A stretch of 23,745 bases of DNA from a virus. The stretch spans positions 1 through 23,745 of the IMG/VR virus record IMGVR_UViG_3300009788_000302; one strand, given 5' to 3'. Numbering within the stretch: the first letter of the stretch is position 1; each line of letters starts with the position of its first letter. This document shows, piece after piece, positions 3,844-23,745 of the stretch. The notes below the pieces were generated by a model. That model made no database searches. It saw nothing but the letters and a program-made list of their open reading frames with translations, and was not told where the DNA came from. The position numbers and the translations under genes are program-made.

Positions 3844-3847
3844 AGTT

Positions 3848-4765: not shown

Positions 4766-4789
4766 AGTGTCACCTTCCGGAAGCTGGAA

Positions 4790-4813
4790 AAGGGTCCGTG
4801 AAAAACGGACCCT
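4790..4813 (-). terminator. Intrinsic terminator or attenuator between the ssb and recA genes
   Basis: A perfect 9-bp stem (4791-4799 with 4805-4813) and a 5-base loop. Read on the minus strand it is followed by TTTTCC. It sits 12 bases after the ssDNA-binding protein stop and just before the recA ribosome binding site. It would let the binding protein be made in excess over RecA and downstream products. There is no second obvious promoter for recA, so partial termination is the simplest reading. Confidence 0.75.
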
Positions 4814-4825
4814 CCCAGTGTGCTG

Positions 4826-6031: not shown

Positions 6032-6046
6032 AAGATGACCACCTTT

Positions 6047-6562
6047 CTACAGACTGCCCTTCGGATATTTTTTCCGGAGACTTTTTTCTATATCTTCTGT
6101 TGAGATCTTCGTCGCCATCTCTTTAATCAAAGTTCGACCTATGTTTTTCAGATCTCCCTCGACTAGACCACTAACAACCTGAAGCGCAAAGCCACGCTGC
6201 CGGAAGGATTCGAGAAGAGACTTCGTGTACTCTTCCTCCACCTCCGCCGTGTTAAGCCGCGCCTTTGCCTTCGCAACTTTCTTCTGAGTTGCGACCATCG
6301 ACTTTACAATATCAACCGTCGCCTTTTCTCCGATACGTTCAAGATGCCGCTTCGCCGCGAGATATGCGTCTGCCTCAATCATTTCGAGGTACGCTTTTGC
6401 GTTTAGTCGTTCCTCTTGTTTTTGCGCCCGGAGTCTCGACGCCGCTTCGTGCAACGTCGCTTGAGTTGTGCCCGCTAAGACAATCGTGTCCGCATCGAAT
6501 GCAAGACCGTTCAAGAGTTCCTCGACGTCTACGCTTTTAGCAATGTGTTCTGATAATTCCAT
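6047..6562 (-). CDS. Probable UvsY-like recombination mediator
   Basis: A 171-residue, highly helical, charged protein with AAAGGG shortly upstream of ATG 6562. It lies directly upstream of the ssDNA-binding protein gene. The stretch around residues 100-130 (KAKARLNTAEVEEEYTKSLL then ESFRQRGFALQVVSGLVEG) resembles the C-terminal part of T4 UvsY, where a helix ending in SRGFAIK precedes the C-terminal helix. UvsY (137 aa) loads UvsX onto gp32-coated ssDNA. The synteny with gp32-like and UvsX-like genes supports the call, and the extra C-terminal 40 residues do not contradict it. The alternative is an unrelated coiled-coil accessory protein. The call rests on a weak motif plus context. Confidence 0.5.
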   Translation of the reverse strand: MELSEHIAKSVDVEELLNGLAFDADTIVLAGTTQATLHEAASRLRAQKQEERLNAKAYLEMIEADAYLAAKRHLERIGEKATVDIVKSMVATQKKVAKAKARLNTAEVEEEYTKSLLESFRQRGFALQVVSGLVEGDLKNIGRTLIKEMATKISTEDIEKSLRKKYPKGSL

Positions 6563-6585
6563 CCTGACCCTTTACTAATACGCGA

Positions 6586-9432: not shown

Positions 9433-9617
9433 AGCTTCACTCGTTCACCACTACAAAGAATGTGTAAGAAGGGTCCGCCGTTGAAGTCGAGGTTCTCGTA
9501 ATCCATTGGATGATCATAGTACAGCTTTCCGCACTCGTCACAGACACAGTCTCCGCCCGCTCGAATAAACTCGACCTCTGAATCCGATTCACCCGCAAGT
9601 CTCTTGAAGGGATTCAT
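9429..9617 (-). CDS. Mini zinc-binding protein, copy 2 of a tandem pair (62 aa)
   Basis: A 62-residue protein with a C-V-C-D-E-C cluster, then DHPMDY, and a late Cys in HILCSGERVKL. The CxxC, His and Cys could bind one zinc ion. It is a clear paralogue of the gene immediately upstream, sharing the GDCVC, LYxDHPMD, PFLxILC and RVKL blocks. Its start overlaps that gene's stop (ATGA), and its stop overlaps the polymerase start. Lodged between the sliding clamp and polymerase genes, the pair may modulate the replisome or simply be a duplicated accessory gene. I do not recognise the family. Confidence 0.85.
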   Translation of the reverse strand: MNPFKRLAGESDSEVEFIRAGGDCVCDECGKLYYDHPMDYENLDFNGGPFLHILCSGERVKL

Positions 9618-9832
9618 AGCTTGACCCGCCGTCCATCACAAAGAATGTTTAAAAATGGAAGGTCTTGAAAGTCGAGAATATCCCAGTCCATAGGATGATC
9701 GACATACAACTTCTTACACTGTTCACAGACACAGTCCCCACACGCAAGCGAGAACTCAACCGCTGAATCCCCTTCGCCCGCGCGTGGAAGATCAAAGAGG
9801 TTCATCGGTGGACCCTGCGGAAGCGGTTCCAT
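9614..9832 (-). CDS. Mini zinc-binding protein, copy 1 of a tandem pair (72 aa)
   Basis: A 72-residue protein ending in the same blocks as its downstream paralogue (GDCVCEQC, DHPMDW, PFLNILC, RRVKL). The ATG at 9832 makes a TAATG junction with the sliding-clamp stop, with GGAAGG upstream, and I use it. The in-frame ATG at residue 10 would give a 63-residue product aligning end to end with copy 2 and is also possible. Both copies keep every Cys and His of the putative zinc site, which argues that both are functional. No known function. Confidence 0.85.
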   Translation of the reverse strand: MEPLPQGPPMNLFDLPRAGEGDSAVEFSLACGDCVCEQCKKLYVDHPMDWDILDFQDLPFLNILCDGRRVKL

Positions 9833-10908
9833 TAGAGAACCTTCCGCGAAACGAGAAGCTGAGCGTCGAGGTTCTCACACTTGATCAGAAACGGAGAAGT
9901 CTTGTCGCCATAGAGGATCTCAACCGCCGCATCAGCGGGACAGAGACTCAGGAAGGGCATTAGAGGCGGAATAAGGATCGTCAGTCGATCCCCCGGAGAG
10001 GTAACGTCTAACGACTCCCGGAACGTTCCCGAAGGCGTAGAGACCACGAAGAGCGCCTTCCCTTCCTTGCTCTCTGTATCAATCCCGACCGTGATGTCTT
10101 CCGCCTCTGACTTGTGTGCGAACTGGGACATCTCACGAAGAAGCGCAAGAACAGTCCCAACCGGATAAAGTGTAATCCCTTGTTTGAATTTCGAAGCAAG
10201 AGCGAAGAGTTTCTCAAAGTGTTTTTCCGGAAACTTTTTGAGAGTGTCCCGATCATAGGTCCTGTAGAGCGACCCGCCCGCGAAAGTGACTCGCGCCGCT
10301 TCCGTGTTTCGCCAGAGTGTTGAGTCTGAAGTCACCGCCTTAAGCAGATCAAGCGGGACGGGTCCTCTCCAGTTTCCGGAGACTGGCGCTTTTATCATGG
10401 TGAGTTGATTCGAAGCGAGAAGCGAGTCTCCAGTAAACCATACACAATCAAGAGAAGGATCAATCCCTTCCCCGCCCGCATAGCTAAGCGCGAGTCGAAT
10501 GAAGTCGTAGTCGAAGCCACCTAGATCTAGCTGAGTTGCCTTCGTCGTCTTCGGCCACGGTTCAAACCCTTCTGTTGATTCCTGAAGCGGAAACTTTCCG
10601 GAACGTCTTCCCGCGCGAACGATTAGAGTATCGTCAACCTGAGAGATCGTCAGATCCCCGCTCAACTTCTTCAGTCCCTTAATCCACTGAAGGAAGAGCG
10701 CCCGGTTAACATTCGCTCTGATCGCTTCGCCGACTTGACCTTCAATCCATGTCTGAGCTTGGAGCGATGACGCCGCCCGAAAGAAGATTCGTCCGACCGT
10801 TGCATTCGTCGCTATCCGCAGTAGGTGTGACGCTGGAAGCGCGTTCACCTTTGGCACCTTCTCAAGAACCGCTACCACCTCTAACAATTTGTCTATCGGA
10901 ATTTTCAT
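9832..10908 (-). CDS. DnaN-like sliding clamp (beta clamp)
   Basis: A 358-residue protein close to the length of bacterial beta clamps (about 366). It looks like three repeated mixed alpha/beta domains without transmembrane or nucleotide-binding motifs: an N-terminal MKIPIDKLLEVVAVLEKVP helix, strands with GRIFFRA (about 39-45), a central LDLGGFDYDFIRLALSYAG helix, and a third domain ending with KCENLDAQLLVSRKVL. The ring clamp tethers polymerase to DNA and binds partners through short hydrophobic peptides. The neighbouring clamp loader, family A polymerase and sigma-like gene (compare T4 gp45 with gp44, gp43 and gp55) fit. The ATG overlaps the upstream stop (ATGA), and the stop overlaps the next start. 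Confidence 0.75.
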   Translation of the reverse strand: MKIPIDKLLEVVAVLEKVPKVNALPASHLLRIATNATVGRIFFRAASSLQAQTWIEGQVGEAIRANVNRALFLQWIKGLKKLSGDLTISQVDDTLIVRAGRRSGKFPLQESTEGFEPWPKTTKATQLDLGGFDYDFIRLALSYAGGEGIDPSLDCVWFTGDSLLASNQLTMIKAPVSGNWRGPVPLDLLKAVTSDSTLWRNTEAARVTFAGGSLYRTYDRDTLKKFPEKHFEKLFALASKFKQGITLYPVGTVLALLREMSQFAHKSEAEDITVGIDTESKEGKALFVVSTPSGTFRESLDVTSPGDRLTILIPPLMPFLSLCPADAAVEILYGDKTSPFLIKCENLDAQLLVSRKVL

Positions 10909-11459
10909 AGCACCCTGACCCTAAGCTTCCCGTCACTTTCATCAAAGACCCACTCGACGCCATTTTTGAATTGCTTCCGGAAGGTTCGAAGGTAGTAGGC
11001 GTGGTCTCCGCCCATCTCTTCGAGGTACTGATCAAACTCGACCCGAGTCATTCCACTGTCGCGCATCTTATCAAAGAGCGGTCGCGCAATACTCCCGCGC
11101 GTGAACGGATTATTCTTCGCCGTCTTTTTGAATCCAGCCTCCCGCTTCTGAACTTCAGTTATACAACGGAGACTTTCCGCTCGAATTTTCGCCGTCATCT
11201 CGATCAGTCGCATGATACGCCCCTCTGCAAACAGCCGACAAGGTAGCCGATCCTGACAATAGGTCGAACACTCGTCCGCTTCTCGATCATAGAGTTCACT
11301 ACCAAAACATGACGCTCGTGTCGGATATTTTGACAGTCGCTTCAGACATCGGTAGCACGTCATACACTCCGGAAAGAAAAGAAAGCCGCCAACATCGCTT
11401 GTAGAGAAACGATCTCCACAATCAATACAAATCAAGATTGGTGACTTTCCGGGTTTCAT
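10905..11459 (-). CDS. Unknown Cys-rich zinc-finger-like protein (184 aa)
   Basis: Not recognised. The first 75 residues contain about a dozen Cys arranged as a zinc ribbon (C11-x2-C14, then E-C-x2-C-x2-C near 31-38) and a second cluster of the form CFG...YD...ECSTYCQDRLPC at about 51-75. The middle is helical. Residues 115-165 (GSIARPLFDKMRDSGMTRVEFDQYLEE and after) look like a small helical or winged-helix unit, with a strand-rich end DGKLRVRVL. The start overlaps the sigma-like gene's stop and the stop overlaps the clamp start, so it is translated in step with them. A DNA-binding or transcription accessory role is a guess from the zinc ribbon and neighbours. Confidence 0.8.
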   Translation of the reverse strand: MKPGKSPILICIDCGDRFSTSDVGGFLFFPECMTCYRCLKRLSKYPTRASCFGSELYDREADECSTYCQDRLPCRLFAEGRIMRLIEMTAKIRAESLRCITEVQKREAGFKKTAKNNPFTRGSIARPLFDKMRDSGMTRVEFDQYLEEMGGDHAYYLRTFRKQFKNGVEWVFDESDGKLRVRVL

Positions 11460-11995
11460 TTAAACAAGTAGAGGAAATCTTCGACCGTGACCGACGTCTG
11501 CGCCGACAACCATTGAACCTCAGCTTGGAAATGTGAGAATACGCGAGACGATGCTCTCTCCGGAAGCTGACCGCCGAACACATAGAGATCAAGCGTCTCT
11601 CGAAGTTCCTCTGAAGCGAGATCGTAGAAACGCTGTACCCGCTCTTCCGCCCCTGGATTCATCTCGGAAAGAACTGGAAGGAAGATGCCCTCTACTGGAT
11701 CGTCATAACTCACGACGACCCCCTTCCGCTTCTTATAGTTCATCCCCTTTAGGACATCCTGAAGACGACGCGAGACCGCGTAGGTAAGAAGCTTTGGGAA
11801 TGGTTGGCGCTTGCCGCGCCGGTCCTCGAATTTCTGCTTCGCGTAAATGAAATGCTCCGCTCCAATTGCATAGAGATCCTCAACATCGACAGAGTTCAGG
11901 AAAGATGGTGGTATCCGGGAGTAAAATCTATGTGCGAGTTTCCAAAGAAGCCGCGAGTAGTCTTCAAATTTAATTTCTGTAGGATGATCCGACAT
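11456..11995 (-). CDS. Sigma-70 family-like transcription factor
   Basis: I choose ATG 11995 (179 aa), which has GGAG seven bases upstream, over an upstream TTG. Residues 35-90 resemble sigma region 2: DVEDLYAIGAEHFIYAKQKF then PFPKLLTYAVSRRLQDVLKG, matching the helix pattern of core-binding region 2.1-2.3. The C-terminal third could be a divergent region 4, with helices from about 120 to 160. The protein ends TVEDFLYLFK, an acidic-hydrophobic peptide like those used to bind sliding clamps. T4 gp55 (185 aa) is a phage late sigma factor that works only with the clamp gp45, and the gene lies two genes from the clamp. It probably directs middle or late phage transcription. Full sigma function is not proven from sequence. 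Confidence 0.65.
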   Translation of the reverse strand: MSDHPTEIKFEDYSRLLWKLAHRFYSRIPPSFLNSVDVEDLYAIGAEHFIYAKQKFEDRRGKRQPFPKLLTYAVSRRLQDVLKGMNYKKRKGVVVSYDDPVEGIFLPVLSEMNPGAEERVQRFYDLASEELRETLDLYVFGGQLPERASSRVFSHFQAEVQWLSAQTSVTVEDFLYLFK

Positions 11996-12021
11996 CCGCA
12001 ATCTCCGATCACTTAGGTTAC

Positions 12022-13002
12022 TTACCGGACAGTAGCGCCCTTGAAAAATTCTGTCATGCGAGACGTAAGATATCCGCTCTCAATCCCGCCGATCCAGTCT
12101 AGCAGAGCTTTCGCTTTCTTCGCCCGCTCCGCTTTCGTCATGAAGCGTTCCATCGTTTCCCACATAGTTGTAAGTTCGCGGTCGATGTGATCCTTTGTCG
12201 CTCCAGAGAACTGGGAGTAGTCACTCGTTCGCGGAATGTAAACCGTCCGGAAGCATCGATGCACTCGATCCCATCTCGCACGGAGCTTTGGGTATTTCGA
12301 CCGAACCTCATTCGGAAGTTTCCGGAAGTCCGCCTTCGAAGGATCGACGCCGTCTAGGATCATCGCTTTCGCGCCGACCGGACCGAGACCCTTGATTGCT
12401 TTGATATTGTCACTTGGATCGCCTGCAAGCGCTTTGTAACGCGACCACTGTCCCGACGTGATACCGTGCTCTTCCTTCAGGTCCGCTGCCGTGTAGAGCT
12501 TGATACCACCACCGTTCTCAGGTCTGAGAGCGAAGCACCTTCGAGAAAGCAACTGGAAGAGATCCTGATCGTTCGAGTAGAAGTAGGAAGCGCCCGCGAT
12601 CTTGTCGCGGACCCACCGTGTCCCGATGCCGATCAGGTCATCAGCTTCGAGCGTCGGAACCGCCACCGTTGCGAAGCCACATATCCGAAGGAACTTCAGA
12701 AGTTCCGGAAGTTGAGCGTGAACTTTCTTCTTCTCATCGTCTACCTTCCGCTGTCCCTTATATTCCGGAAGGATGTTATAGCGGAACGAGCGCCTCTGGG
12801 TTGCGCCGGGATATCCGGAGTCGAAACAGAAAACAATCCGCGCCTTAGAAGCGATCTCTAGCAGCGTGAGAATCATCGAAGGAACCCCGAACAGAACAGA
12901 GGTCGGATTCCCTGCGGAGTCCGTCAGTCTTTGGTGTGCATAGTGCGCCCGGTAAACGAGATTCGACAGGTCCACAAAGACAACGTCGCCAGATTCTAGC
13001 AT
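12022..13002 (-). CDS. 5'-3' exonuclease / flap endonuclease (FEN, RNase H-like)
   Basis: I place the start at ATG 13002 (326 aa), preceded by GGAGG ten bases upstream, rather than at a start 48 bases earlier inside the primase gene. FEN-family motifs: VFVD11-LSNLVYRAHYA at the N-terminus; FCFDSGYPGATQRR; EADDLIG; SNDQDLFQLL; and the helix-3-turn-helix GDPSDNIKAIKGLGPVGA. These match the 5' nuclease domain of Pol I and T4 RNase H or T5 exonuclease, which remove RNA primers and flaps. The family A polymerase here lacks such a domain, so this gene supplies it. It overlaps the primase stop by seven bases. Confidence 0.92.
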   Translation of the reverse strand: MLESGDVVFVDLSNLVYRAHYAHQRLTDSAGNPTSVLFGVPSMILTLLEIASKARIVFCFDSGYPGATQRRSFRYNILPEYKGQRKVDDEKKKVHAQLPELLKFLRICGFATVAVPTLEADDLIGIGTRWVRDKIAGASYFYSNDQDLFQLLSRRCFALRPENGGGIKLYTAADLKEEHGITSGQWSRYKALAGDPSDNIKAIKGLGPVGAKAMILDGVDPSKADFRKLPNEVRSKYPKLRARWDRVHRCFRTVYIPRTSDYSQFSGATKDHIDRELTTMWETMERFMTKAERAKKAKALLDWIGGIESGYLTSRMTEFFKGATVR

Positions 13003-13925
13003 AGGTTTGCAACCTCCAGAGAGACCCTCTGACGAAGCGACCGTGACCATGGCTTAGCACCTATCGCCGCTGTCTGGATCTCTTCCTGAGACAAGTCGTC
13101 CGCGTCCGCAAGTGGGAGCGGATGAACAAAACGTACATCGAAGTTCTCATCGCTGAGCCGGTCCGCGACATTGATCGCCCCTTCAACGCCGACGCGATCC
13201 GCATCCGAGAAGATGACCATCTGGCGATGACCCGACTCCCGGATCTGATCAACCTGAAGCTCCGTTACTGAGTGACCAAGTAGCGCCGAGCTTCCGACTT
13301 TGAATCTGAGAAGCGCCTGTTCAATTGCGACCGCCTTGAAACAACCTTCTGAGAGGAAGAGCGGACCCTTACCTTCCGGAGAAAGATTGTACATCGAACG
13401 TTCACCCGCTGAGTTGAGATACTTCGGTTCCCGGCATCCTGTCCAGTCACGTCCGACGATCCCCTTTAGTTCCTCTTTGAACACGACCGGAATGATAATC
13501 CTGTACCCAAACTTTCCGGAAAGACAACCACCTAGATAATGTTCCTCAATAACCTTCGGAGTAACACCGCGCTCTAGTAGGTACTGCCGCGCTGTCCAGA
13601 GAGGACCGTCTTCTTCTTCCACCGTTGATAGTAGTGTGAAGTCTTCCGGAAGCTCTAACGGTTTCTCTTCGGCTTCCTCGACCACGTCCATCCCGGAATC
13701 GTAGATAGAGACTGAATCAATCTGAAGCTGAAGCAGGATCAGCCGCGTCGCCTTCCGACTCTTCCATCCGCAGTTGAAACAATGAGCAACAGATTTGAAA
13801 TAGTTCAAACCGAGGCGGAACCTCATGTCGTCACAGAACGGACAGCATAGGTTGACTTCGTTTCTCCGAGAGACGTTGCGCCTGTATTGAACGCCGCGAA
13901 AGGTCAGAGCTTCGAGGAAGGTCAT
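12996..13925 (-). CDS. DnaG-type primase with zinc finger and Toprim domain
   Basis: A 309-residue primase. The N-terminal zinc-binding domain is C28-P-F-C31 and C49-F-N-C52, as in CHC2-type fingers. The Toprim core is about 150-260: E193 in FLSEGC, then FSD241-A-D243-RVG. A typical Toprim has EGxxD at the first motif; here the residues after EG are CFKA, so that aspartate is absent. It should make RNA primers for lagging-strand synthesis with the adjacent DnaB-like helicase. Its ATG overlaps the helicase stop. It is about half the length of bacterial DnaG and lacks a separate helicase-binding domain, as in small phage primases. Confidence 0.9.
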   Translation of the reverse strand: MTFLEALTFRGVQYRRNVSRRNEVNLCCPFCDDMRFRLGLNYFKSVAHCFNCGWKSRKATRLILLQLQIDSVSIYDSGMDVVEEAEEKPLELPEDFTLLSTVEEEDGPLWTARQYLLERGVTPKVIEEHYLGGCLSGKFGYRIIIPVVFKEELKGIVGRDWTGCREPKYLNSAGERSMYNLSPEGKGPLFLSEGCFKAVAIEQALLRFKVGSSALLGHSVTELQVDQIRESGHRQMVIFSDADRVGVEGAINVADRLSDENFDVRFVHPLPLADADDLSQEEIQTAAIGAKPWSRSLRQRVSLEVANLC

Positions 13926-15277
13926 TCGTCGTTCTCCAGTTCTTCAAGCTGTTTCAAGACGTCCGCCCGCTCCATTGCTTGCGTTGCGTCGCGGTCGAAG
14001 ACCAGCATTCGAGGAAGGTCAGGCATGATATTACACCCAATGTTTCCCCGGTCGAACTTGTGAGCCGCGACATGGACATAGATCGACTCGTCTCCCCAAT
14101 CACCGCGACCGAGAGCGAAACAGCAAGCGACCTTCTTAGCTTTCCCAATGTCTTCGCCGACCTCATCACCAACGATGATCTTTAAGTCCGATGTGTTCCG
14201 CTTCGTCTGAGCAGCAGTCCATCCTAGTAACTGCTCCCGCGCCATGAAGCGACGAAGCGCCCGATAGATCTGATCGAAGTCCATTCGCCGTTGTTGGTTA
14301 TTTGCTTCCGGTTCGATCTCTTCATCGTAGTCGACAATAATCGCATCAACCTTGAACCCGAGTTCCTTCTCCATTTCATAGATCTGAATGATCTTAGAGA
14401 CTGTGATCCCGCCATCCGTTCCGTCGTAGATCTTGAGCTTTGATTTGATAAGTCTCCGGAACCTCGCAAAACGTCTCCGCAATTCATCCGGATCATCACC
14501 AACTTCTTTGACTGGAATCTCTGCAATGCCCGCGTCAAAGCGATCCTCCACGTCATCTCTTGGGTCTTCGAGCGTGATGTATAAAACGTTCAATCCCTGA
14601 AGAGTGTACGCCTTCGCGATCTGGATCAGGAAGAGACTCTTCCCGCGCTTGTAGGGAGCCATCACGAGACCGAGCTGACCTCTCGCAATGGAGCGAACCA
14701 TCTGATCAACGGGATCGATCATGATCGCCGGATAACGGGAGTCCTTCCGGAAGGCGCGGCGCATGATCCGATCTTCAAGCGTAGCGTAGTACTCCGCGAC
14801 TTCGACCCCTATCGAGTCCTCAATTGAAGAGACCCGCCGAACGATGGACGCGAAGACTTCGTTCGATAGTTCGTTCGCCGCATTCAGTTCAATGATTTCG
14901 TCGATTGCCTTCGTCCGCTCCGCTGTAACCCGCCACTCGATAAGCCGATCTGAAACAGCTTTCGCGTTCGGGTCGTCGTGGAGTAGGTTCCGAGCAAGAC
15001 CCGCGAGTTCCTTCGCCCGGTCCTTCCCGAATCGAGCAATCCGAACGTGTTCCTTCAGTTCGACGCCGATCAGTTTCCCGATAGGTTCACGGTACTTTTT
15101 GAAGTGGTCGAGTGCTTTTGTCGCGATGATCCATCGATCACGGGAACCGCTATTCGATGCCGGTTTGAAGTCTCCCGCCGCGAGAAGCGTCGAGTGTCTT
15201 CGGAGGAACGCCCGGTCGTTTATGATCAGCGACAGGAGAGAATCCTGATAACCAACGTCGTCGATCAGAGACGGCAT
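13922..15277 (-). CDS. DnaB/gp41-type replicative DNA helicase
   Basis: A 451-residue RecA-fold hexameric helicase. An N-terminal helical domain (1-150) resembles the DnaB primase-interacting domain. The ATPase carries Walker A A207-P-Y-K-R-G-K213-S214, where the first Gly is Ala. It also has ITLE237-DP, the expected catalytic Glu position; Walker B AIIVD317-YDEE; and AAQTKR (355-360), matching the QxxR DNA- and nucleotide-sensing motif. It should unwind DNA at the fork together with the primase encoded next, whose start its stop overlaps. GGAG lies eight bases before the ATG. The stretch 15278-15302 to the next gene is only a short gap. Confidence 0.92.
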   Translation of the reverse strand: MPSLIDDVGYQDSLLSLIINDRAFLRRHSTLLAAGDFKPASNSGSRDRWIIATKALDHFKKYREPIGKLIGVELKEHVRIARFGKDRAKELAGLARNLLHDDPNAKAVSDRLIEWRVTAERTKAIDEIIELNAANELSNEVFASIVRRVSSIEDSIGVEVAEYYATLEDRIMRRAFRKDSRYPAIMIDPVDQMVRSIARGQLGLVMAPYKRGKSLFLIQIAKAYTLQGLNVLYITLEDPRDDVEDRFDAGIAEIPVKEVGDDPDELRRRFARFRRLIKSKLKIYDGTDGGITVSKIIQIYEMEKELGFKVDAIIVDYDEEIEPEANNQQRRMDFDQIYRALRRFMAREQLLGWTAAQTKRNTSDLKIIVGDEVGEDIGKAKKVACCFALGRGDWGDESIYVHVAAHKFDRGNIGCNIMPDLPRMLVFDRDATQAMERADVLKQLEELENDE

Positions 15278-15302
15278 AAGACCGACTCCGCGAGTGTTGC
15301 CG

Positions 15303-15827
15303 TCAAGTCCAAGGTGAGTTGCGGTAGCGTCGTAACAGACGCCGATCCGCTTCGTGGGAGGCTTTCTCGCGATGTACGGTTAGGGCTTCTAGGTATCTTT
15401 CCGGAAACTCTTCCGGGTGCTCTGGGAGTTGAACGCTGAAGGTTGCGGAATTTATCGCCTGCTGTTTTCGAAGTCGCCATGATTTGATTTGCTCACCATT
15501 GGGAAATTTTTTCTGAACCTGACTGTCAAGGTACTTCATTGCCGACGTTCCTGTCAAGACCTTTATCGAAACACCTAATCGATCTGAACTCGCGCCCTTG
15601 CCGCGTCGGTACTTCCCAAGCAAGATACCGAGTAGCTCAGACAGCGGGAGCCGATGTTTCAAAATAGCACCCCTCAAGTTTAACAAACGGACAAGGGTCT
15701 CCGGTTTTGTATCAAGGATCACATCGATGCCCATTTTGGAAAGCGCCCGCTCAACACGACGGACGAACTGCATCGCTTGAAGTTCGGTTGCCGATAGTCG
15801 CTTTCGAAATGCTTCCCGTTTGTCCAT
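15303..15827 (-). CDS. Unknown 174-aa basic protein upstream of the replicative helicase
   Basis: No family recognised. The protein is basic, with helical segments at 1-40 (MDKREAFRKRLSATELQAMQ and after) and 40-75 (PLSELLGILLGKYRRGKG), and a charged C-terminus with FPERYLEAL. There are no cysteines, membrane segments or nucleotide motifs. Position suggests a helicase loader (T4 gp59 analogue) or an origin-binding protein: it is the first gene after a terminator and a repeat-rich non-coding region, and directly precedes the DnaB-like helicase. That is positional inference only. The ATG at 15827 has a weak ribosome binding site, with AAAGG about 15 bases away. Confidence 0.7.
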   Translation of the reverse strand: MDKREAFRKRLSATELQAMQFVRRVERALSKMGIDVILDTKPETLVRLLNLRGAILKHRLPLSELLGILLGKYRRGKGASSDRLGVSIKVLTGTSAMKYLDSQVQKKFPNGEQIKSWRLRKQQAINSATFSVQLPEHPEEFPERYLEALTVHREKASHEADRRLLRRYRNSPWT

Positions 15828-16014
15828 GTATTGAAGATACGCCTTTCTCCGATCCTTCCGGAATCACCGCGAAGCGAAAGGGTCTCGCGCACGCGAGAAC
15901 CCGAACTAGCTATTGTCTAAACGAAGTGAGCCTGAGCGAAGCGAAGGTAGACATTAGCTAGTTCGAACCTGTATTACCTTATCCTCTATTCCTTTGTTCT
16001 TCAAAGAAAGACTC
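15828..16014. other. Non-coding region with long hairpin and iteron-like repeats; candidate origin or control region
   Basis: This 187-base stretch is the longest non-coding gap inside the replication block. It holds an 18-bp inverted repeat with one mismatch (15902-15919 and 15948-15965) around a 28-base loop. A 7-bp palindromic hairpin of TCTCGCG/CGCGAGA type lies at 15883-15898. Two near-identical direct repeats read GCGAAGCGAA(A)GG (15869-15881 and 15936-15947), with a weaker third at about 15921. A TTCCGGAA copy is at 15856-15863. No convincing promoter was found. The setting, between a terminator and the unknown gene before the helicase, suits a replication origin or a structured leader. 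Confidence 0.45.
15902..15965. repeat. 18-bp inverted repeat (17/18) forming a long hairpin
   Basis: Arm 15902-15919 (CGAACTAGCTATTGTCTA) pairs with 15948-15965, with a single mismatch. The loop is 28 bases and contains GCGAAGCGAAGG, which recurs at 15869. No T-tract follows on either strand, so a simple terminator is unlikely. Confidence 0.85.
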
Positions 16015-16037
16015 GGGAATCCCCGTAGGGGATTCCC
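16009..16037 (-). terminator. Intrinsic terminator downstream of the uvsW-like gene
   Basis: A perfect 10-bp stem (16015-16024 with 16028-16037) and a three-base loop, read on the minus strand, is followed by a T-rich GAGTCTTTCTTTG. It lies 18 bases past the helicase gene stop at 16055. It separates the helicase transcript from the rest of the replication block. Confidence 0.75.
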
Positions 16038-16054
16038 TCCCAGAAAGAAAGTTC

Positions 16055-17542
16055 CTACTTTGTCGATATCAGCCCCTTCAGACGGGTCTCAGCAAGATCA
16101 AAGAGATAGCCAGCATTGTTCCTCCAGAGCTGAGGATCGACGGTCACCTTCAATTCTCTGAGCGCCCTACGACGTGAGAGCGTCGCATCCCTGAAGGGAT
16201 TACAACCACGGGTTGGAGCCTTGTCGCCAATGTCGAAGTAGATCAATCCAGTCTTTCCGGAAACTATCCGAGCGCCGCGCCCATACTTCTGTTTGACGTC
16301 GTTCCCATCACGCCCGCCCGCTGCTTCAATGATCACATCGAGCGACTTGATATCGACTCCCTTCCGAAAGACTCGATTGCAAACGAGAAGCGGAACCTTC
16401 CCCGCGTCGAAATCTTTCCGCGCCCGGTTGCGAACCTTCGCCGGAACCGCGCCATAGATCGCCTGAGGATTCAGGTCCGCTAGTTCATCCATAATCAGTT
16501 CGATATGTGCTATCCGGTCAACAAGGATCGCTGTCCGCTTGCCGCGTCTGAACGCCTCCCGAGCGAGAGCAAAGATCGCTTCGTTTCTTTCCGGAGACAT
16601 CACAAGATATTCTCCATAGAGCACCGTGTACGGAAGCTCTTCGAGTTCACCTTCCTCGAAGTTTATGTGACGCATGACGTCAACCGCGACAACCGTTCCC
16701 GGAGAGAGCTTCTCCTCTCTGACGCCCTTCTCGTACGGGTAGTTGTAGACGACCGGACCGGAGAGCGCTAGAGCCGGGAACAGCGCGTAATCTTTCTGGA
16801 GTTCGAGCGTCGCCGTAAGACCAAAGACGCCTCTTGGTTGAAGTAGTTTCAACGTCGCGCGGGTCCGTTCGTTTAGCTGAAGGTGCAATTCATCGAGGAA
16901 CATTGCTGAACAGTTGTTCCCAAGATCTTTCATGATCTTCGACTGTCGATACTTGTGAAGAGTTTGAATCGTCGCAACCGTGATCCGTTTCGGATCAAAC
17001 TCCTGATCACCGATGACGCCGATCTCTTCCTGAAGAGCTGACTCGAATGCTTCCTTCGTCTGGTACAAGAGCGTCAACTCATCAACTACAAAGATTCCGG
17101 AACCTTCCATGATCGCGAAGTAAATAGCCGCGATCATTGTCTTCCCAGAGCCGGTCGCATTGAGAATTATCCCGCCGATGTTTGAACGCTTCATCATTCG
17201 TTCAACCGCAAGACTTTGGTGCTCCCAGATCTCGATAGATTTGTTTGGTAGCTGGAAGCCTTCCAGTGAGTCGACCTTGAACTGTACGTGACGTCGAAGG
17301 TCTCTCAATCGGAAGTGAAGCTTTCGCTCCCGCTCGATTTGTTTGTAACGGTGCAAGAACAATCCGGAAGGAACGAGAGACCCCTTCATCAGACGAATGT
17401 AGCCGTCCCACCCGCGACGTCGTTTCATCTGCCAGTAATAGTCTTTCGGACGAAAAATGAACTCGTCCGAGAGGTCATCTGGGAACGGATAAACGAGCCG
17501 CGTGAAACGGTTTCCGACCTCTCCTTTGACCACAGTCCTCAT
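16055..17542 (-). CDS. UvsW-like superfamily 2 DNA helicase
   Basis: I place the start at ATG 17542 (495 aa); upstream in-frame codons run through the divergent promoter region and look non-coding. SF2 motifs: A129-T-G-S-G-K134-T (I); motif II D217-E-L-H in place of DEAH; FGLTATLE (about 240-247, III); RTAILVDR; VLLVCNRVFRKGVDI (V); and QKYGRGARI (VI, Q-x2-GR-x2-R). An N-terminal domain of about 100 residues precedes the helicase core, as in T4 UvsW, which unwinds R-loops and branch-migrates recombination intermediates. No ribosome binding site precedes this ATG. It is the first gene of the leftward replication block and is closed off by its own terminator. Confidence 0.9.
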   Translation of the reverse strand: MRTVVKGEVGNRFTRLVYPFPDDLSDEFIFRPKDYYWQMKRRRGWDGYIRLMKGSLVPSGLFLHRYKQIERERKLHFRLRDLRRHVQFKVDSLEGFQLPNKSIEIWEHQSLAVERMMKRSNIGGIILNATGSGKTMIAAIYFAIMEGSGIFVVDELTLLYQTKEAFESALQEEIGVIGDQEFDPKRITVATIQTLHKYRQSKIMKDLGNNCSAMFLDELHLQLNERTRATLKLLQPRGVFGLTATLELQKDYALFPALALSGPVVYNYPYEKGVREEKLSPGTVVAVDVMRHINFEEGELEELPYTVLYGEYLVMSPERNEAIFALAREAFRRGKRTAILVDRIAHIELIMDELADLNPQAIYGAVPAKVRNRARKDFDAGKVPLLVCNRVFRKGVDIKSLDVIIEAAGGRDGNDVKQKYGRGARIVSGKTGLIYFDIGDKAPTRGCNPFRDATLSRRRALRELKVTVDPQLWRNNAGYLFDLAETRLKGLISTK

Positions 17543-17552
17543 GCTATTCAGT

Positions 17553-17590
17553 CTAGCATAGTTTCCCGTATACAAGCTAGGATAGTTTCC
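17553..17590 (-). promoter_or_regulatory. Paired 14-base direct repeat upstream of the uvsW-like gene
   Basis: Two copies of GGAAACTATSCTAG (minus strand; 17553-17566 and 17577-17590) differ at one base and start 24 bases apart. The inner copy ends 10 bases before the helicase ATG. They contain TATGCT and TATCCT, which could be -10 boxes, but I see no matching TTGACA at proper spacing. They may be sites for an activator or for a phage-specific sigma factor. Confidence 0.45.
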
Positions 17591-17602
17591 AGAAGATTCC
17601 TC

Positions 17603-17632
17603 TTGACATCTTTCCGGAACCTGTGCTCCAAT
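17603..17632 (+). promoter_or_regulatory. Promoter-like box with TTCCGGAA in the spacer, upstream of the 80-aa gene
   Basis: TTGACA at 17603-17608 is followed by a spacer carrying TTCCGGAA (17612-17619) and a weak -10 (TCCAAT, 18-base spacing). It would give a leader of about 40 bases before the ribosome binding site at 17669. The -35 is perfect and the -10 is poor, so confidence is moderate. Confidence 0.45.
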
Positions 17633-17680: not shown

Positions 17681-17923
17681 ATGGCAAGATGTCAACCATG
17701 TGAACCGATCATGACTGGACTACAGTTTCTGTATGCTTGCCGGAAAGCAGTGAAGGATGAGACCGCGTTAGTGGTTGACAGTGACATCCTTACGTTGGGC
17801 TTCGCGAAATTGGTTTTAGCGCTGTACGAAGGAATGCCTGAACTTGACCGAAAGGAATTCTTCGCCCAAGACGCCACGATGATCATTGCCGCGATTCGTC
17901 TATCACTCTCAGGTTACGCATGA
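17681..17923 (+). CDS. Unknown 80-aa protein, first plus-strand gene
   Basis: ATG 17681 with a strong GGAGG seven bases upstream fixes the start; the longer upstream open frame is antisense to the helicase gene. The product begins MARCQPCEP, with a CxxC that lacks a second pair. The rest is a helical acidic protein (SDILTLGFAKLVLALYEG, EFFAQDATMIIAAIRLSL) with moderately hydrophobic helices but no clear membrane segment. No family recognised. It lies divergent to the leftward replication block and is followed by a short AT-rich inverted repeat (17928-17955) that may end its transcript. Confidence 0.8.
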   Translation: MARCQPCEPIMTGLQFLYACRKAVKDETALVVDSDILTLGFAKLVLALYEGMPELDRKEFFAQDATMIIAAIRLSLSGYA

Positions 17924-17958
17924 GCCTAAATCTTTTTAAACTTTTTGGAAGATTTCTC

Positions 17959-17987
17959 TTGACAAAACCTTCCGGAAGGTTTAAGCT
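17959..17987 (+). promoter_or_regulatory. Leaderless-type promoter with an 18-bp palindrome between -35 and -10
   Basis: TTGACA (17959-17964), a 17-base spacer, and TAAGCT (17982-17987). The spacer is almost exactly a perfect 18-bp palindrome, AAACCTTCCGGAAGGTTT (17965-17982). The ATG of the next gene begins six bases after the -10, which is where transcription should start, and there is no ribosome binding site. A protein bound to the palindrome would block RNA polymerase, so this is a strong operator candidate. Confidence 0.7.
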
Positions 17988-17993
17988 TTAATC

Positions 17994-18278
17994 ATGACAG
18001 ACGCAAGAATCACCGCCTCTCTCGCAAAGCTGAATGATAGTCCTCTGCATCTCGGATACACTCTTCCGAAGCTTGCCGCCGCCTTCAACCGCGTGACCGT
18101 CTCGACCTCGTGGAAAGAGGTTATCAATAAGCAGTTTCCTACCGTCCTGACTCGTGCAGAGAAGAGCGCAATCGCCGCCTCTGTCGGCTTCTACACTGGC
18201 GAGAATCCTGTCATCACTGACAACTACTTTGGGACAAGAGTTGCCGGTCGAGGTTATTACAAGGTCATAGGAGCTTAG
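17994..18278 (+). CDS. Unknown 94-aa protein from a leaderless-type promoter
   Basis: The start ATG 17994 sits six bases after the -10 box, so the mRNA would start at or next to the AUG. The protein is small, soluble and mildly basic (SLAKLND, LPKLAAAFNRVTVSTSWKEV, LTRAEKSAIAASVGFYTGENPV, ending GRGYYKVIGA). There are no motifs I recognise. It shares its promoter type, and the AATCATG start context, with the gene at 18495, but the two proteins are not alike. Such small early genes often encode host-takeover factors; that is inference. Confidence 0.8.
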   Translation: MTDARITASLAKLNDSPLHLGYTLPKLAAAFNRVTVSTSWKEVINKQFPTVLTRAEKSAIAASVGFYTGENPVITDNYFGTRVAGRGYYKVIGA

Positions 18279-18459
18279 ATCTCCTGACGTCCGACCGGAA
18301 GCGGACGATAAAGAATCCTTCCGGAGAAAGCGAGGACGCTATACGACGCTAACGATTTGTCACACAATTGAATAGGGGATTTGCCTTGTAAGCGGTCCCC
18401 ACTCATGACAGGGATCGGAACTTTCGGGAGAGGGTTCCGGTCCCGATCTATTTTAGGAG
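18279..18459. other. Gap with remnant duplicated 3' gene end
   Basis: No intact gene is seen. From 18424 the sequence matches 18740 onward (49 of 54 bases through the -35 and palindrome). The matching part of the later copy is the end of the 90-aa gene plus the next promoter. Here the reading frame gives FRERVPVP, like RERIPVSL at the end of that gene, but its upstream frame closes at about 18389. It looks like a leftover of a tandem duplication of gene-plus-promoter cassettes. Confidence 0.5.
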
Positions 18460-18488
18460 TTGACAAAAGCTTCCGGAAGGTTTATTCT
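18460..18488 (+). promoter_or_regulatory. Leaderless-type promoter, second copy, with TTCCGGAA in spacer
   Basis: TTGACA (18460-18465), a 17-base spacer with AAAGCTTCCGGAAGGTTT (one mismatched pair from a perfect palindrome), and TATTCT (18483-18488). The ATG at 18495 is six bases after the -10, the same geometry as the promoter at 17959. No ribosome binding site is present. Confidence 0.75.
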
Positions 18489-18494
18489 TGAATC

Positions 18495-18767
18495 ATGCTA
18501 GACGCTGACAGAGTTCAAACGAACAAAGAAGCAAAAGCCGAAGCGAGGAAAGTTCAGAAGCAGTTTCCGGGATCTCTCCTGAAAACTGGTAAGTGGGCAA
18601 TCTATGTTTACTTTGAAAAGACGGAAGCCGAAGTAAAGGCAACAGCGGACGGAGTTTCTCGCTGGAACGTCAAAGCATCTTGGGATCGCTGGACCTTCAC
18701 AAAGAAAGAAAAAGCAGCGGGAAAAGTTCCCGGATGGTATCGGGAGAGGATTCCAGTCTCGCTCTAG
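18495..18767 (+). CDS. Unknown 90-aa basic protein from a leaderless-type promoter
   Basis: ATG 18495 follows the -10 by six bases, so translation probably starts at the 5' end of the mRNA. The product is lysine-rich, with an N-terminal helix (NKEAKAEARKVQKQFPGSL). Strands around KWAIYVYFEKTEAEVKATADGVSRW and SWDRWTFTKKEKA suggest a compact alpha/beta fold rich in Trp. No cysteines or membrane segment. No family recognised. Its last codons lie inside a 54-base repeat shared with 18424-18477, so it is one cassette of a duplicated promoter-gene series. Confidence 0.8.
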   Translation: MLDADRVQTNKEAKAEARKVQKQFPGSLLKTGKWAIYVYFEKTEAEVKATADGVSRWNVKASWDRWTFTKKEKAAGKVPGWYRERIPVSL

Positions 18768-18775
18768 TTTAGGAG

Positions 18776-18804
18776 TTGACAAAAGCTTCCGGATGTATTA
18801 CTAT
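18776..18804 (+). promoter_or_regulatory. Third promoter of the same family
   Basis: TTGACA (18776-18781), a 17-base spacer with AAAGCTTCCGGAT (the palindrome broken on its right side), and TACTAT (18799-18804). The expected start is about 18811. No start codon sits at the +1, unlike the two preceding promoters, so it drives either an RNA or the 45-aa frame at 18832. Confidence 0.7.
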
Positions 18805-18810: not shown

Positions 18811-18942
18811 GTCGCCGGGATCGCCTAACCCGTGATCACCGCGCGGCAACTCAAAAGTGTTTGTAACCTCCAGAAGGACCCGGTTTGTCGCTGGGTCCTT
18901 CGTCGTTTCCGGAACAATAAGACCCGCTTCCAGAAGCGTTTT
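18811..18942 (+). ncRNA. Candidate structured small RNA ending in tandem hairpins
   Basis: From the predicted start, GUUGUCGC (18809-18816) can pair with GCGGCAAC (18843-18850) with one G-U. An 8-bp perfect hairpin of AAGGACCC with GGGTCCTT follows (18874-18881/18893-18900). Then comes a short hairpin with TTTT (18925-18942) typical of a terminator. A small 45-aa frame overlaps the same interval, so this is an alternative interpretation, not an established RNA gene. Confidence 0.35.
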
Positions 18943-18969
18943 CCCCTCAAAGAGTTAATCGAGTACTAG
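18832..18969 (+). CDS. Possible small basic protein (45 aa, GTG start)
   Basis: A frame from GTG 18832 to TAG 18967-18969 encodes a compositionally plausible Arg/Lys-rich peptide (QLKSVCNLQKDPVCRWVLRR then KTRFQKRFPLKELIEY). It begins about 20 bases after the predicted transcription start. There is no good ribosome binding site, and the frame runs through two hairpins that would otherwise read as a terminator pair. The codons look gene-like and contain one TTCCGGAA in frame as FRN. Coding and non-coding readings are about equally likely. Confidence 0.35.
   Translation: MITARQLKSVCNLQKDPVCRWVLRRFRNNKTRFQKRFPLKELIEY
18925..18942 (+). terminator. Short hairpin with T-tract ending the plus-strand cluster
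   Basis: CGCTTC (18925-18930) pairs with GAAGCG (18933-18938), immediately followed by TTTTCCCC. The stem is short and the loop tight, so strength is uncertain. It fits the end of the plus-strand transcripts before the convergent gap. Confidence 0.5.
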
Positions 18970-19980: not shown

Positions 19981-21207
19981 CTAGTAGATCTTCGAGCCGT
20001 AGCCGTCGATTAAAACCGGAATTCCCTTCGGTGAGAGAATCTCTGAATACACTGAAAAGATTCGGACAGTTCCCCCACTGCTTTGGTGGTAACCGATCTT
20101 TGCTGAAACCATTTCGGCAAAAGTCCAGGCAGATCCTGTTGCAGGGTTGCGATTCCAGACAAACTGAATCGAGGTTCGATCTGTGTCCGGATTGCCTGAA
20201 GTCCATGTCAAAGTAGCCGGGTCCGGAGTATAGGGTCCATTGATCAAGTCGGCGTAATAGGTCGTTCCATCGATCTTCAACGTCGGGACTACGACGCTAT
20301 CGGAGTCCATCGCTTGCGCCGCGACCGTGACCGCGACCGCTAACGGAATCTCATATTCGTAGGCGTACCGCTTTGAAAATGTTGCCGCCATGCCAGACTG
20401 GGAAACGAGGTACTGATCATAGTCCGGAACGTCAAAGATACCACTTGCCCAGTAGTCGGAAACTAAATCCCATTCATCTATCCCCGGATGGCTCTTCGTA
20501 ATGCCAGCGGAGATCGCATCATTGGCGACAGGCGTGAGAAGTTGAACGCGGCAGTCTCCTAGATCGCCAACGTTGATATCCGCTTCATCGGTGACGTAGC
20601 AGTTGTCAAAAACGACATCCCGCGCTCCAAAGTCCTGGTAGTAGATCATCGGTTGGTTGCCGCCCGGTGTTCCACTGAAGACAGCGACGTCTTCCACTCC
20701 TATTGTTCCGGAAGCAAAGTCCGCATAGAAGCTCCGCCATGTATCAAATTCGTCAAGCGGATCGATGATCCCATTCTGTTGCGCGAAAGTGCCGCCGAAC
20801 TTGTCCGCCTTCGTTCCCGCTGTCCAGAGTTCGTAGTAGAATCGAGCATCCCCCGCATCCCACTTACAAACAAATGAGTGTACGATGCTCGTGTCTCCGG
20901 AAGCTACGCGAAAATACGCACAATTTGCGACTGAGCGAGGAACGCCTGCGCGTCCAAAATTAAGGAAGTCCATTCGCCAGAAGAGATCTCCGGTCCGGTT
21001 TGGGAAAGCAAGAGTCTGACCACCGTAGCCGAATCCAGTATTCGAGTAGTAACCGCCAACATCCCGCCGATCTGGTGAGTCGCCGTTTTCGTTGTAGCGC
21101 CCATACTCATATCGGCTTCGAGCCCCTCTGTCGCTGACCTTTGTCCAGCGTCGGTAGTCATTGAACTGAGAGTGACCGTCAAAGCCATCGATTAGAAGGA
21201 CCGCCAT
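19981..21207 (-). CDS. Tail or virion surface protein (408 aa)
   Basis: A 408-residue, Tyr/Gly/Asp-rich, beta-rich protein that begins MAVLLIDGFDG and ends VLIDGYGSKIY. The N-terminal half has a lectin or LamG-like pattern: GFGYGGQTLAFPN, then strands with aromatic residues (FRVASGDTSIVHSFVCKWD, FYYELWTAG). The second half carries another domain rich in Tyr and Trp (WTFAEMVSAKIGYHQSSGG). Such proteins decorate phage tails or capsids and may contact the host surface. It shares one base with the upstream tail gene (19981-21207 against 21207), so the two are translated together. Confidence 0.7.
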   Translation of the reverse strand: MAVLLIDGFDGHSQFNDYRRWTKVSDRGARSRYEYGRYNENGDSPDRRDVGGYYSNTGFGYGGQTLAFPNRTGDLFWRMDFLNFGRAGVPRSVANCAYFRVASGDTSIVHSFVCKWDAGDARFYYELWTAGTKADKFGGTFAQQNGIIDPLDEFDTWRSFYADFASGTIGVEDVAVFSGTPGGNQPMIYYQDFGARDVVFDNCYVTDEADINVGDLGDCRVQLLTPVANDAISAGITKSHPGIDEWDLVSDYWASGIFDVPDYDQYLVSQSGMAATFSKRYAYEYEIPLAVAVTVAAQAMDSDSVVVPTLKIDGTTYYADLINGPYTPDPATLTWTSGNPDTDRTSIQFVWNRNPATGSAWTFAEMVSAKIGYHQSSGGTVRIFSVYSEILSPKGIPVLIDGYGSKIY

Positions 21208-23745
21208 TAGACATAACCTGTGACGGTGACGGTTCCGTTTTTGCCGGGAGTCGTCGAACCTATTTGAAGAATGTCGATCCGAATGATCGCGCCCTTCGGC
21301 AGTGTGAGCGGAGCCGCCACGAAACTGCTGAAGGTATACTGTCCCGATCCGATCTCGGTTATACTTCCGGAAAGAAGAACTGAGACGCCGTTTGACTTCA
21401 CATCGAGAGAGACTGTAGCTCCTGTAGGCGGAGTCGCAAAGTTGACCTTAATATCTTTCAAGGTCAGGTTCCATGGCAACTCTTGACGAGCTACGTCGTT
21501 CCTAACTACGATCCCCGGATGATCAAGCGGCGGAGAATCCCATGCAAGGTTGAAAGCAATACTCTTCAATTGCTTAACCGGATTCTGCCGGATACGCCGA
21601 ACCAAACGTTGCATCGTTGCGAGAGCGTCTCTCTGTTGGATCTGATTCGAGACTGTGACCGTGTGTGAGAGCACCGTTCTCTGACGCTCTTCTAGTGTGA
21701 CCCGCTCGACGGTGCCAGTGACGCCGGTCACATTCCATGAGGGCAGGTTCAACGACATATCCTGTCCCGGTTCGAGACCCCACTTCTCAGTTTCAACCGT
21801 AACCTCGACACCGAACTCTGAGAAGCGGTCGAGAAGTGCGTTCGCGTACTCTTCGAGTAGTTGCGGGTCATCAACATCATTAACGATCTCGCTCGACGCA
21901 TAGATGCCTGTTCCGCCTTCAACCGCCGCCCGCGCGTCGATCTCCGTTTGATTGTCAACAACCATCGGCGGAATGCCCTGAGACTCAGAGCTTATATTTC
22001 CGGAAGGTTGAACCGTTCCACCGATCTGCTCTGTCGCTTCGAACGTAACCCGGAGAATGTCTCCCCCGGTCGGATACGCGCCCGGTTTCCCGAGATGATT
22101 CCAGACCATGTCTAGTTTCCCTGGGTAAGTCTCATCGTCTGAGGTTCCATAAACAACGACGTAATCCCAGTCGGACGGAACGCCCCCCTCATCAAGGTAG
22201 TACCATGACAACGGAGTTCCATTCAGCGTGACTGACAGAATCCGTTTGATGTGGTTCTCGTAGCGACTGTCTGAGAGGAATTGACCGGAGTAGAAGACCG
22301 GAAGACCGTCAACAGTTGTGTCAGTCGGAACCGTGTACTCAAACGTGATGATCCCGCCCGGTCCGCCGAAGATCGTATATCCGGGAGCGCCCGTGACACC
22401 AGTCGTAGCTTTCGCGAAAGTTGATTTGATATAAATCCGGTTCCGGTAAAGTCCGCGATTCTTCCGGACACGAAGATTCCGCCAGTCTTCATTAGGCGTT
22501 TCAGTAATCGCCCATGGTGCCGAAGTTGATTCCGCAGGTCGATCATACATTCGGAAGTTTTTATCAAAATCGACTTGCCAGTTCCATCCGGTAAGTTCTC
22601 CGAGTTTGTCAAGCGCTTCGTTCAACGGGATCGCGTCGAACTCGATATCGCCGATAACGATTCCTGGGTCTCCCTGACTGAGATAAGATATTCCTTCCGG
22701 AACCAAGTACTTCTCACTGATATCATCGAGGATCGACGTTAGTGTTCCAAAGGAGTTCTCCGCGTACTTCGCGCGAATGATCCGCCGCGAGAGTGCCTTT
22801 GCCCAATCTGTCGCCTGAATGTCATGGAAAGTTTCGAGTCCGCCCGTCGTCGGTGACTTCGTCGTCTCGAAGCTGTCAACCGTTCCCGCGAAGAGTTTCT
22901 TCCAGTCGGAAGAAGCCTCATCCCAGAAGTAGAGTAGAACATCCTGACCGAGAGATGGGAAGTAAGTTCCCGCCGAATCATAGACTCGGAAGGATGTAGC
23001 GCCTAAGAAGTTCAACTGCCGGTCGATCCTGACAGAGTCGACAAGCGCGTTCATCTGTTGACCGTTTACATGAACAACAAAGGGTGAGTATCCGGAAGCT
23101 ACCGGGTCGTCGAGAAGCTGAAGGACCGCGCCGCTTTGACCAAACCGTTCCGCCGATGGAATCCCCACTAGACCTAGCATCGGAAATAGAAGCGAACCGT
23201 CCGCGCCAAAGTTTTCTAGAGATGGAATGCCCTTTGCACCTACGATGACCGCGACAGTCCCGTCAGTGCCGAAAGCTTCAGCCGATACGATGCCCGCCGC
23301 TCCGGTGATTGCACCCGTGACGGAGCCGCCTGAACCGAAAGCTTCAGCGGAAACTATCCCAGAGATACCCGTCAGTGGTCCTGCGAGAGTGCCTGTCGCA
23401 CCGAAGGCTTCCCCGGAAGGGATTCCAGTCGCTCCGGTGAGCGGACCCGTGATGGAGCCGTTAGCGCCGAAGGCTTCAGCCGTTATGATTCCGGTTGCGC
23501 CGATCAATCCCTGTTGGTAAACAAGACCTGCGAGAGGAGCACCGAAGGCTTCAGCCGAAGGGATGCCGGTCGCACCTGTGAGCGGACCTGTTACGATACC
23601 ACCTGACCCAAAAGCTTCAGCAGTAGAGATTCCGGTTGCGCCGATTAAAAGCGTCTCACCTACAAGACCATCAGCGCCAAATGTTTCTCCGGAAGGAATT
23701 CCTGTAGAACCTGTGATGGTTAGAGGAACAAGTACTTCGCCGCCC
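21207..23745 (-). CDS. Tail/baseplate protein with tandem 22-aa repeats, N-terminus off the window
   Basis: The frame is open to the right edge, so the gene starts beyond 23745; a TTG at 23507 lies inside the repeats and is not the real start. At least nine copies of an about 22-residue unit, consensus TGIxSAEAFGxxGxxxGPLTGA, occupy 23120-23745, some degenerate. The SAEAFG type of repeat is, from memory, common in phage tail proteins. Downstream comes a tail-hub-like region (FVVHVNGQQMNALVDSVRID, then DVLLYFWDEASSDWKKLFAGTVD, and an ATDWAKALSRRII segment). A long beta-rich part and a C-terminal strand-rich domain (LKDIKVNFATPPTGATVSL) follow. This fits a baseplate hub or distal tail protein. 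It is followed by the other tail protein, then the lysis genes. Confidence 0.75.
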   Translation of the reverse strand, partial: GGEVLVPLTITGSTGIPSGETFGADGLVGETLLIGATGISTAEAFGSGGIVTGPLTGATGIPSAEAFGAPLAGLVYQQGLIGATGIITAEAFGANGSITGPLTGATGIPSGEAFGATGTLAGPLTGISGIVSAEAFGSGGSVTGAITGAAGIVSAEAFGTDGTVAVIVGAKGIPSLENFGADGSLLFPMLGLVGIPSAERFGQSGAVLQLLDDPVASGYSPFVVHVNGQQMNALVDSVRIDRQLNFLGATSFRVYDSAGTYFPSLGQDVLLYFWDEASSDWKKLFAGTVDSFETTKSPTTGGLETFHDIQATDWAKALSRRIIRAKYAENSFGTLTSILDDISEKYLVPEGISYLSQGDPGIVIGDIEFDAIPLNEALDKLGELTGWNWQVDFDKNFRMYDRPAESTSAPWAITETPNEDWRNLRVRKNRGLYRNRIYIKSTFAKATTGVTGAPGYTIFGGPGGIITFEYTVPTDTTVDGLPVFYSGQFLSDSRYENHIKRILSVTLNGTPLSWYYLDEGGVPSDWDYVVVYGTSDDETYPGKLDMVWNHLGKPGAYPTGGDILRVTFEATEQIGGTVQPSGNISSESQGIPPMVVDNQTEIDARAAVEGGTGIYASSEIVNDVDDPQLLEEYANALLDRFSEFGVEVTVETEKWGLEPGQDMSLNLPSWNVTGVTGTVERVTLEERQRTVLSHTVTVSNQIQQRDALATMQRLVRRIRQNPVKQLKSIAFNLAWDSPPLDHPGIVVRNDVARQELPWNLTLKDIKVNFATPPTGATVSLDVKSNGVSVLLSGSITEIGSGQYTFSSFVAAPLTLPKGAIIRIDILQIGSTTPGKNGTVTVTGYV
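23120..23745. repeat. Tandem 66-bp coding repeats (SAEAFG type)
   Basis: About nine imperfect units of 63-69 bases, each encoding GIxSAEAFG followed by a Gly/Thr/Pro-rich linker. Divergence is greater toward the end of the repeat array at 23120-23230. Codons differ between units, so they are old or repeatedly gene-converted. Confidence 0.8.

Follow-up and report, generated by a model that had tools for sequence, protein, structure and literature searches.

A palindrome, TTCCGGAA, is built at one fixed position into about 20 promoters of a group of related phages, and roughly a hundred additional copies are dispersed beyond promoters across their genome fragments. The anatomy of these promoters, the fixed register of the palindrome within them, the footprint common to promoter and dispersed sites, and the purifying selection on the word are established by the comparisons given below. 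As the most probable explanation (roughly 0.58), we propose that one dimeric DNA-binding regulator recognises all of them and that, at a set of early promoters, it keeps RNA polymerase from binding.

The phage group and its genome fragments

The window, i.e. the whole stretch of DNA analysed here (G000; 23,745 nucleotides), is a 23.7-kb virus fragment, for which no DNA-level match to any isolate phage was found; likewise, searches with PolA and UvsX did not find a close relative of these phages. Profile searches identified in it a leftward replication module encoding a clamp-loader-like AAA ATPase, RecA/UvsX, a gp32-like SSB, a 5'-3' exonuclease, a primase-like Toprim protein, a DnaB-like helicase, a DEAD/UvsW-type helicase and an SbcC/D-like nuclease. 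The DNA polymerase A (6586-9432) is fused to a uracil-DNA-glycosylase superfamily domain (Pfam PF03167, PF01612, PF00476). The group has two different sigma-70 region 2 proteins, one at L033:7304-7963 and one on the minus strand of the window at 11456-12001 (phrog_351, E 7.6e-9), the latter a candidate phage sigma factor.

Scanning IMG/VR for TTGACA-N5-TTCCGGAA returned two contigs, L033 and L066, which contain 8 and 9 copies, respectively, and both come from metagenome 3300009788; L092, from a different metagenome, is an identical piece of the first sibling. The siblings, named G001 (L033 and L143) and G002 (L066 and L144), share ~80% identity across their common part and amount, together with the window, to ~77 kb. 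Terminase, portal, head and sigma-factor genes are found in G001, whose end is 78% identical to positions 20815-23618 of the window in reversed orientation; this homology overlap places the window in the group as its replication arm, and the window and G002 may belong to one and the same genome. L321, the third relative, shares 78% identity with G001. The strong Shine-Dalgarno core AAGGAG is strongly depleted on both strands of the window and the two siblings (8 vs 62 expected).

A promoter family with a palindrome in fixed register

In the window, promoter 1 (17959-17987, plus strand) was read directly as a -35 box TTGACA (17959-17964) and a -10 box TAAGCT (17982-17987), whose 17-bp spacer contains most of AAACCTTCCGGAAGGTTT (17965-17982), the perfect 18-bp palindrome of the preliminary description. 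The ATG of a 94-aa ORF (17994-18278, plus strand) comes six bases past the -10 box, and a degenerate palindrome with 2 mismatches, TTTTGGAA (17943-17950), lies 8 bp 5' of the -35 box as the upstream half of a paired operator. Promoter 2 (18460-18488, plus strand) consists of TTGACA (18460-18465), TTCCGGAA (18471-18478) and TATTCT (18483-18488), again six bases before the ATG of an ORF (90 aa; 18495-18767, plus strand); over the surrounding 46 bp it shares 93% identity with the G001:3844 promoter, and a terminator-like hairpin with a T-rich tail (18411-18454, plus strand) stands directly 5' of it. Both ORFs are predicted to be leaderless and had no family match in profile searches. Promoter 3 (18776-18804, plus strand) has TTGACA, TTCCGGAT and TACTAT (18799-18804), without an ATG at +1, and its upstream portion duplicates promoter 2, so that these two promoters, both sitting in duplicated flanks, are not independent.

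The earlier reading of these three copies as TTGACA and a -10-like box exactly 17 bases apart thus stands, and TTCCGGA begins 5 bases past TTGACA in 3/3, except that the palindrome of promoter 3 is imperfect. A fourth TTGACA, said to carry the palindrome at the same place, proved to be different: in this out-of-register TTGACA-N3-TTCCGGAA element (17603-17619, plus strand) the palindrome begins 3 bases past TTGACA, and CTCCAA rather than a -10 box is found at 17 bp. It is probably a decayed or shifted relative of the family, since TTCCAGAA (17587-17594) lies 8 bp 5' of its TTGACA, as in the other members; an 80-aa ORF with a GGAGG Shine-Dalgarno (17681-17923, plus strand) is located downstream. 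From promoter 3, a short RNA with two stable hairpins is predicted (18811-18900, plus strand; -42.8 kcal/mol, z -3.65 for 18811-18912), overlapping a possible 45-aa GTG ORF (18832-18969), and this transcript may be a small RNA or a leader for that ORF.

All three fragments were scanned, blind to the palindrome, for TTGACA (at most 1 mismatch), a spacer of 16-18 bp and [TC]ANNNT. Every exact TTGACA-17-[TC]ANNNT-N6-ATG site (18/18; 8 in G001, 8 in G002 and 2 in the window) carries CTTCCGGAA at an identical offset (-25 to -17), with the same invariance as TTGACA itself, which bears out the view of the palindrome as a fixed component of a promoter family; the 18 are not 18 independent cases, as the cassettes are partly paralogous duplicates. 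The -10 box, by comparison, varies within this set (TATTCT, CATACT, TATAGT, TAAGCT or TAATCT). None of the exact-TTGACA matches lacking the palindrome has an ATG six bases past the -10 box, and across spacers of 16-18 bp no leaderless palindrome promoter was found with a length other than 17 bp. Adding the copy at 18776 and one more that is truncated where G002 ends brings the family to 20 members, 17 of which are carried by the siblings.

A second TTCCGGAA is present 8 bp 5' of TTGACA, intact in 13 of the 18 promoters and with a single mismatch in one more (14/18), while in two orthologous promoters it lies 18 bp 5', i.e. 10 bp (about one helical turn) further; both upstream copies in the window are degenerate. 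With TTGACA, a 17 bp spacer and a TATAAT-like box, the family has the features of sigma-70 promoters. Apart from promoter 3, all exact-TTGACA palindrome promoters have 6 nt between the -10 box and the ATG, which places the expected start on the A of the ATG and leads us to infer leaderless mRNAs. The paired-operator promoter was absent among 84,980 genomes scanned and, within IMG/VR, was found in these phages only; the 104-kb contig L141, which matched one motif, and the repeat contig L295 were rejected as chance or tandem-repeat matches.

Dispersed copies of the palindrome and selection within genes

The window contains 37 exact copies of TTCCGGAA between 400 and 22702, mostly within the leftward replication genes, against 0.96 expected, and 0/100 shuffles reached this number. 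They start at 400, 1253, 1554, 2077, 2965, 3320, 3994, 4552, 4775, 5441, 6817, 7109, 7789, 8256, 9336, 10225, 10596, 10975, 12320, 12703, 12763, 13514, 13644, 14745, 15399, 15856, 16255, 17095, 17612, 17970, 18471, 18907, 19007, 20706, 21365, 21998 and 22695. Thirty of the copies fall in coding sequence, compared with a mean of 3.4 and a maximum of 11 in 500 codon shuffles keeping amino acids and codon usage; a second comparison with codon shuffles gave 20 vs 1.5. In the window and siblings together the total is 133 in 77 kb (~1.7 per kb). Within positions 1-17600 of the window the copies are spaced more evenly than random (CV 0.56 vs 0.97; P 4e-4); even spacing was not found in the structural arm, and this property, being confined to the replication arm, is not relied on here.

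In alignments of G001 with G002 or the window, 33 of 41 sites are conserved, the corresponding values being 25% for 8-mers in general and 28% for permuted words; this breaks down into 12/12 promoter-linked sites and 21/29 dispersed sites (P 1e-5 vs permuted words). Among coding sites with identical amino acids, 12/14 are conserved, as against 35% of control 8-mers (P 1.3e-4), which implies selection on the DNA word as such within coding sequence. The dispersed copies are therefore under purifying selection and are not drifting. In L321, 5 of its 6 sites are in register with those of G001.

Compared with control GGAA contexts, the flanks of non-redundant dispersed sites show a preference, numbered from each half-site, for R in position +1, W in +3 and T in +4 (P 6e-7, 1e-8 and 3e-3, respectively; 2e-3, 1e-5 and 5e-3 against the stricter CGGAA control). 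Promoter sites agree with this preference, having G at +1 and T at +3. Such a common symmetric footprint of 14-16 bp suggests that one dimer reads promoter and dispersed sites alike, and, together with the purifying selection, makes the earlier proposal that the dispersed sites serve the same protein look correct.

The same 77 kb (window, G001 and G002) is poor in other palindromes. Nineteen of the 64 hexamer palindromes are absent, including CGATCG (0 vs 77 expected), CTCGAG (0 vs 61 expected), GAGCTC, GCGCGC, CCGCGG, CGGCCG and GGATCC, and GGCC occurs 6 times vs ~150-200 expected (3-4% of expectation). TCCGGA, in contrast, is in 6.5-fold excess, which is more notable given the avoidance of other palindromes. 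Palindrome avoidance is described as an anti-restriction strategy (PMC6286503), and here it is suggestive of a group of hosts rich in restriction enzymes.

The proposed regulator, its alternatives and known systems

In the model that we favour, TTCCGGAA would form the centre of a symmetric site of 14-16 bp for one dimeric protein, encoded by the phage or by its host; in ~20 single-gene cassettes, each with a strong promoter of the sigma-70 type, this site would have a fixed place in the spacer that separates the -35 box from the -10 box. With the A of the ATG as predicted start, the site is centred at about -20; a dimer bound there would occupy the region between the two boxes, thereby excluding RNA polymerase and switching off the battery of early promoters. 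That early promoters are shut off together is favoured by each small gene having a promoter of its own and by the terminator-like hairpin preceding promoter 2. A second site ~27 bp upstream, or in two cases 37 bp and thus a further turn of the helix away, might allow two dimers to act jointly, although sites 27 bp apart lie on different faces of the helix. The intragenic sites (1-1.5 per kb) would be extra sites of the same protein, retained by selection, that could titrate that protein, make elongation slower or give the phage DNA its organisation. In this model, the protein, the repression and the function of the dispersed sites are inferred. The preliminary description saw no repressor gene in the window, and this holds for the ~77 kb of window and sibling sequence, from an incomplete genome, in which no helix-turn-helix gene was recognised. 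The best guess for the regulator, a 108-aa protein (L033:839-1165) that looked winged-helix-like by eye, has no family match, and its single-sequence model is too poor to be of use (pLDDT 49).

The rather unlikely alternative that TTCCGGAA, with TCCGGA as its core, is a highly iterated palindrome of the HIP type, linked to a methyltransferase and common to an unsampled host, with promoters that respond to methylation or hold the word incidentally, draws on several likenesses: a density of 1.2-1.7 per kb matches that of cyanobacterial HIP1, one-nt deviants are biased to the outer bases (91/154) as in HIP1, and symmetric extensions are also a HIP trait (PMC4390886). Furthermore, UBA1952, an unrelated Bacteroidetes MAG, contains 3302 copies of TTCCGGAA in 2.7 Mb vs 28 of the control, so that such words do arise in cells. 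Its sites, however, have other flanks (A at +1 in 78%), other deviants and no exact TTGACA-N5-TTCCGGA, which argues against UBA1952 as the source of the word; the three-site scan of 84,980 genomes returned it four times, near the expected number, with no other genome of like density among the matches listed. No methyltransferase was seen among the profile-searched phage proteins, the word is missing from distant phage relatives (helicase ~40% identical), and we know of no HIP word in a fixed promoter register with helical phasing. The flank preference favours a binding protein over a methyltransferase, which need not have one, without deciding against a HIP word, as these can have symmetric extensions (PMC4390886). 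Its flanks, deviants, tetranucleotides and missing promoter speak against UBA1952 as a host linked by the common word, and the word pointed to no other host candidate in the sampled Bacteroidota or Spirochaetota. In UBA1952 itself (G005; sample L324-L332), the word typically reads TTTCCGGAAA, apparently an independent HIP-like word in Bacteroidota, and another HIP-like excess was observed in the Ruminococcus MAG UBA4321 (G017; L172), with 1095 copies of TTCCGGAA in 1.8 Mb vs 1 of the control.

Unlikely, in our opinion, is a phage-wide marking, in which one protein would read a palindrome about every 600 bp as well as at each early promoter, serving as a switch while also providing a nucleoid or self-identity code for the phage, with other GC-rich palindromes almost all removed. 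More doubtful still is a switch protein that, in the manner of phi29 p4, would be a repressor at the TTGACA early promoters and an activator at the structural operon. It is prompted by a rightward promoter before the packaging genes (G001:3863 and G002:3257) in which the palindrome replaces the -35 box: TTCCGGAA-N15-TATTCT/TATTAT-N6-ATG, without TTGACA, is kept in both siblings 5' of the thymidylate synthase, terminase, sigma and portal genes, and its palindrome doubles as the upstream site of a divergent TTGACA promoter. This amounts to one independent case, with ~0.07 strict chance matches expected by estimate, and is suggestive only. Passive capture, whereby a compositionally common word was caught once in a promoter cassette and then duplicated, with no binding protein, seems very improbable; while promoters 2 and 3 are duplicated and flanks are common to cassettes, it is contradicted by the codon-shuffle excess, by conservation above control 8-mers at unchanged amino acids, by the extended flanks in common, and by a spacer core that is invariant while the adjacent bases and the -10 box diverge.

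Overall, this is a large and exactly built phage promoter set with embedded putative operators and a matching dispersed family, on which selection can be measured inside genes. It makes testable why some genomes retain a short palindrome at very high density, and the short site and compact promoter would allow the binding protein to be fished directly. All its single elements are precedented (an operator between the boxes, dispersed L5-like sites, HIP words and leaderless genes). To our knowledge, their combination, one symmetric site in ~20 identical leaderless promoters plus high-density selected intragenic copies, is found in no described phage. LexA, Arc and TetR-type promoters have a palindromic operator between -35 and -10, where binding excludes RNA polymerase; the present system differs in its ~20 identical, predicted leaderless cassettes in one phage and its dispersed site family. 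MerR-type promoters hold a palindrome in a 19-20 bp spacer, as opposed to 17 bp here. In the early/late switch of phi29, p4 represses early and activates late promoters; a protein of that kind here would do both from one type of site, an activating role hinted at by one promoter pair only.

Leaderless genes of Deinococcus-Thermus have a -10 box a few bases 5' of the start codon (PMC12340547); compared with these, the promoters reported here add a strong TTGACA -35 box and an operator in the spacer. HIP1 and the alternate HIP of cyanobacteria are 8-bp GC-centred palindromes found about once per kb, mostly in genes, with outer-base deviants and symmetric extensions (PMC4390886). The phage word is an 8-bp palindrome at a frequency likewise within hundreds to thousands per Mb, and resembles them in density, mostly genic location, deviants and extensions; it differs in belonging to a phage lineage, in being another word, in its constant offset inside promoters and in having no linked methyltransferase seen. 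L5-type stoperators measure 13 bp, follow the direction of transcription and number up to ~30 per genome (PMC6550527), and their repressor recognises an asymmetric sequence as a monomer (PMC9283540). As in L5 and other Cluster A mycobacteriophages, one site family occurs here in early promoters and at many other places in the genome. In contrast to the asymmetric L5 sites with their known repressor (PMC6550527, PMC9283540), the present sites are symmetric, the core being a perfect palindrome and the symmetry reaching 18 bp in promoter 1, occur at ~1.7 per kb and in ~20 promoters, and are mostly intragenic, so that the stoperator analogy drawn earlier fails on anatomy. Judged by its sites, we would class this phage system as an analogue of the L5-type stoperators and not as a member of that group.
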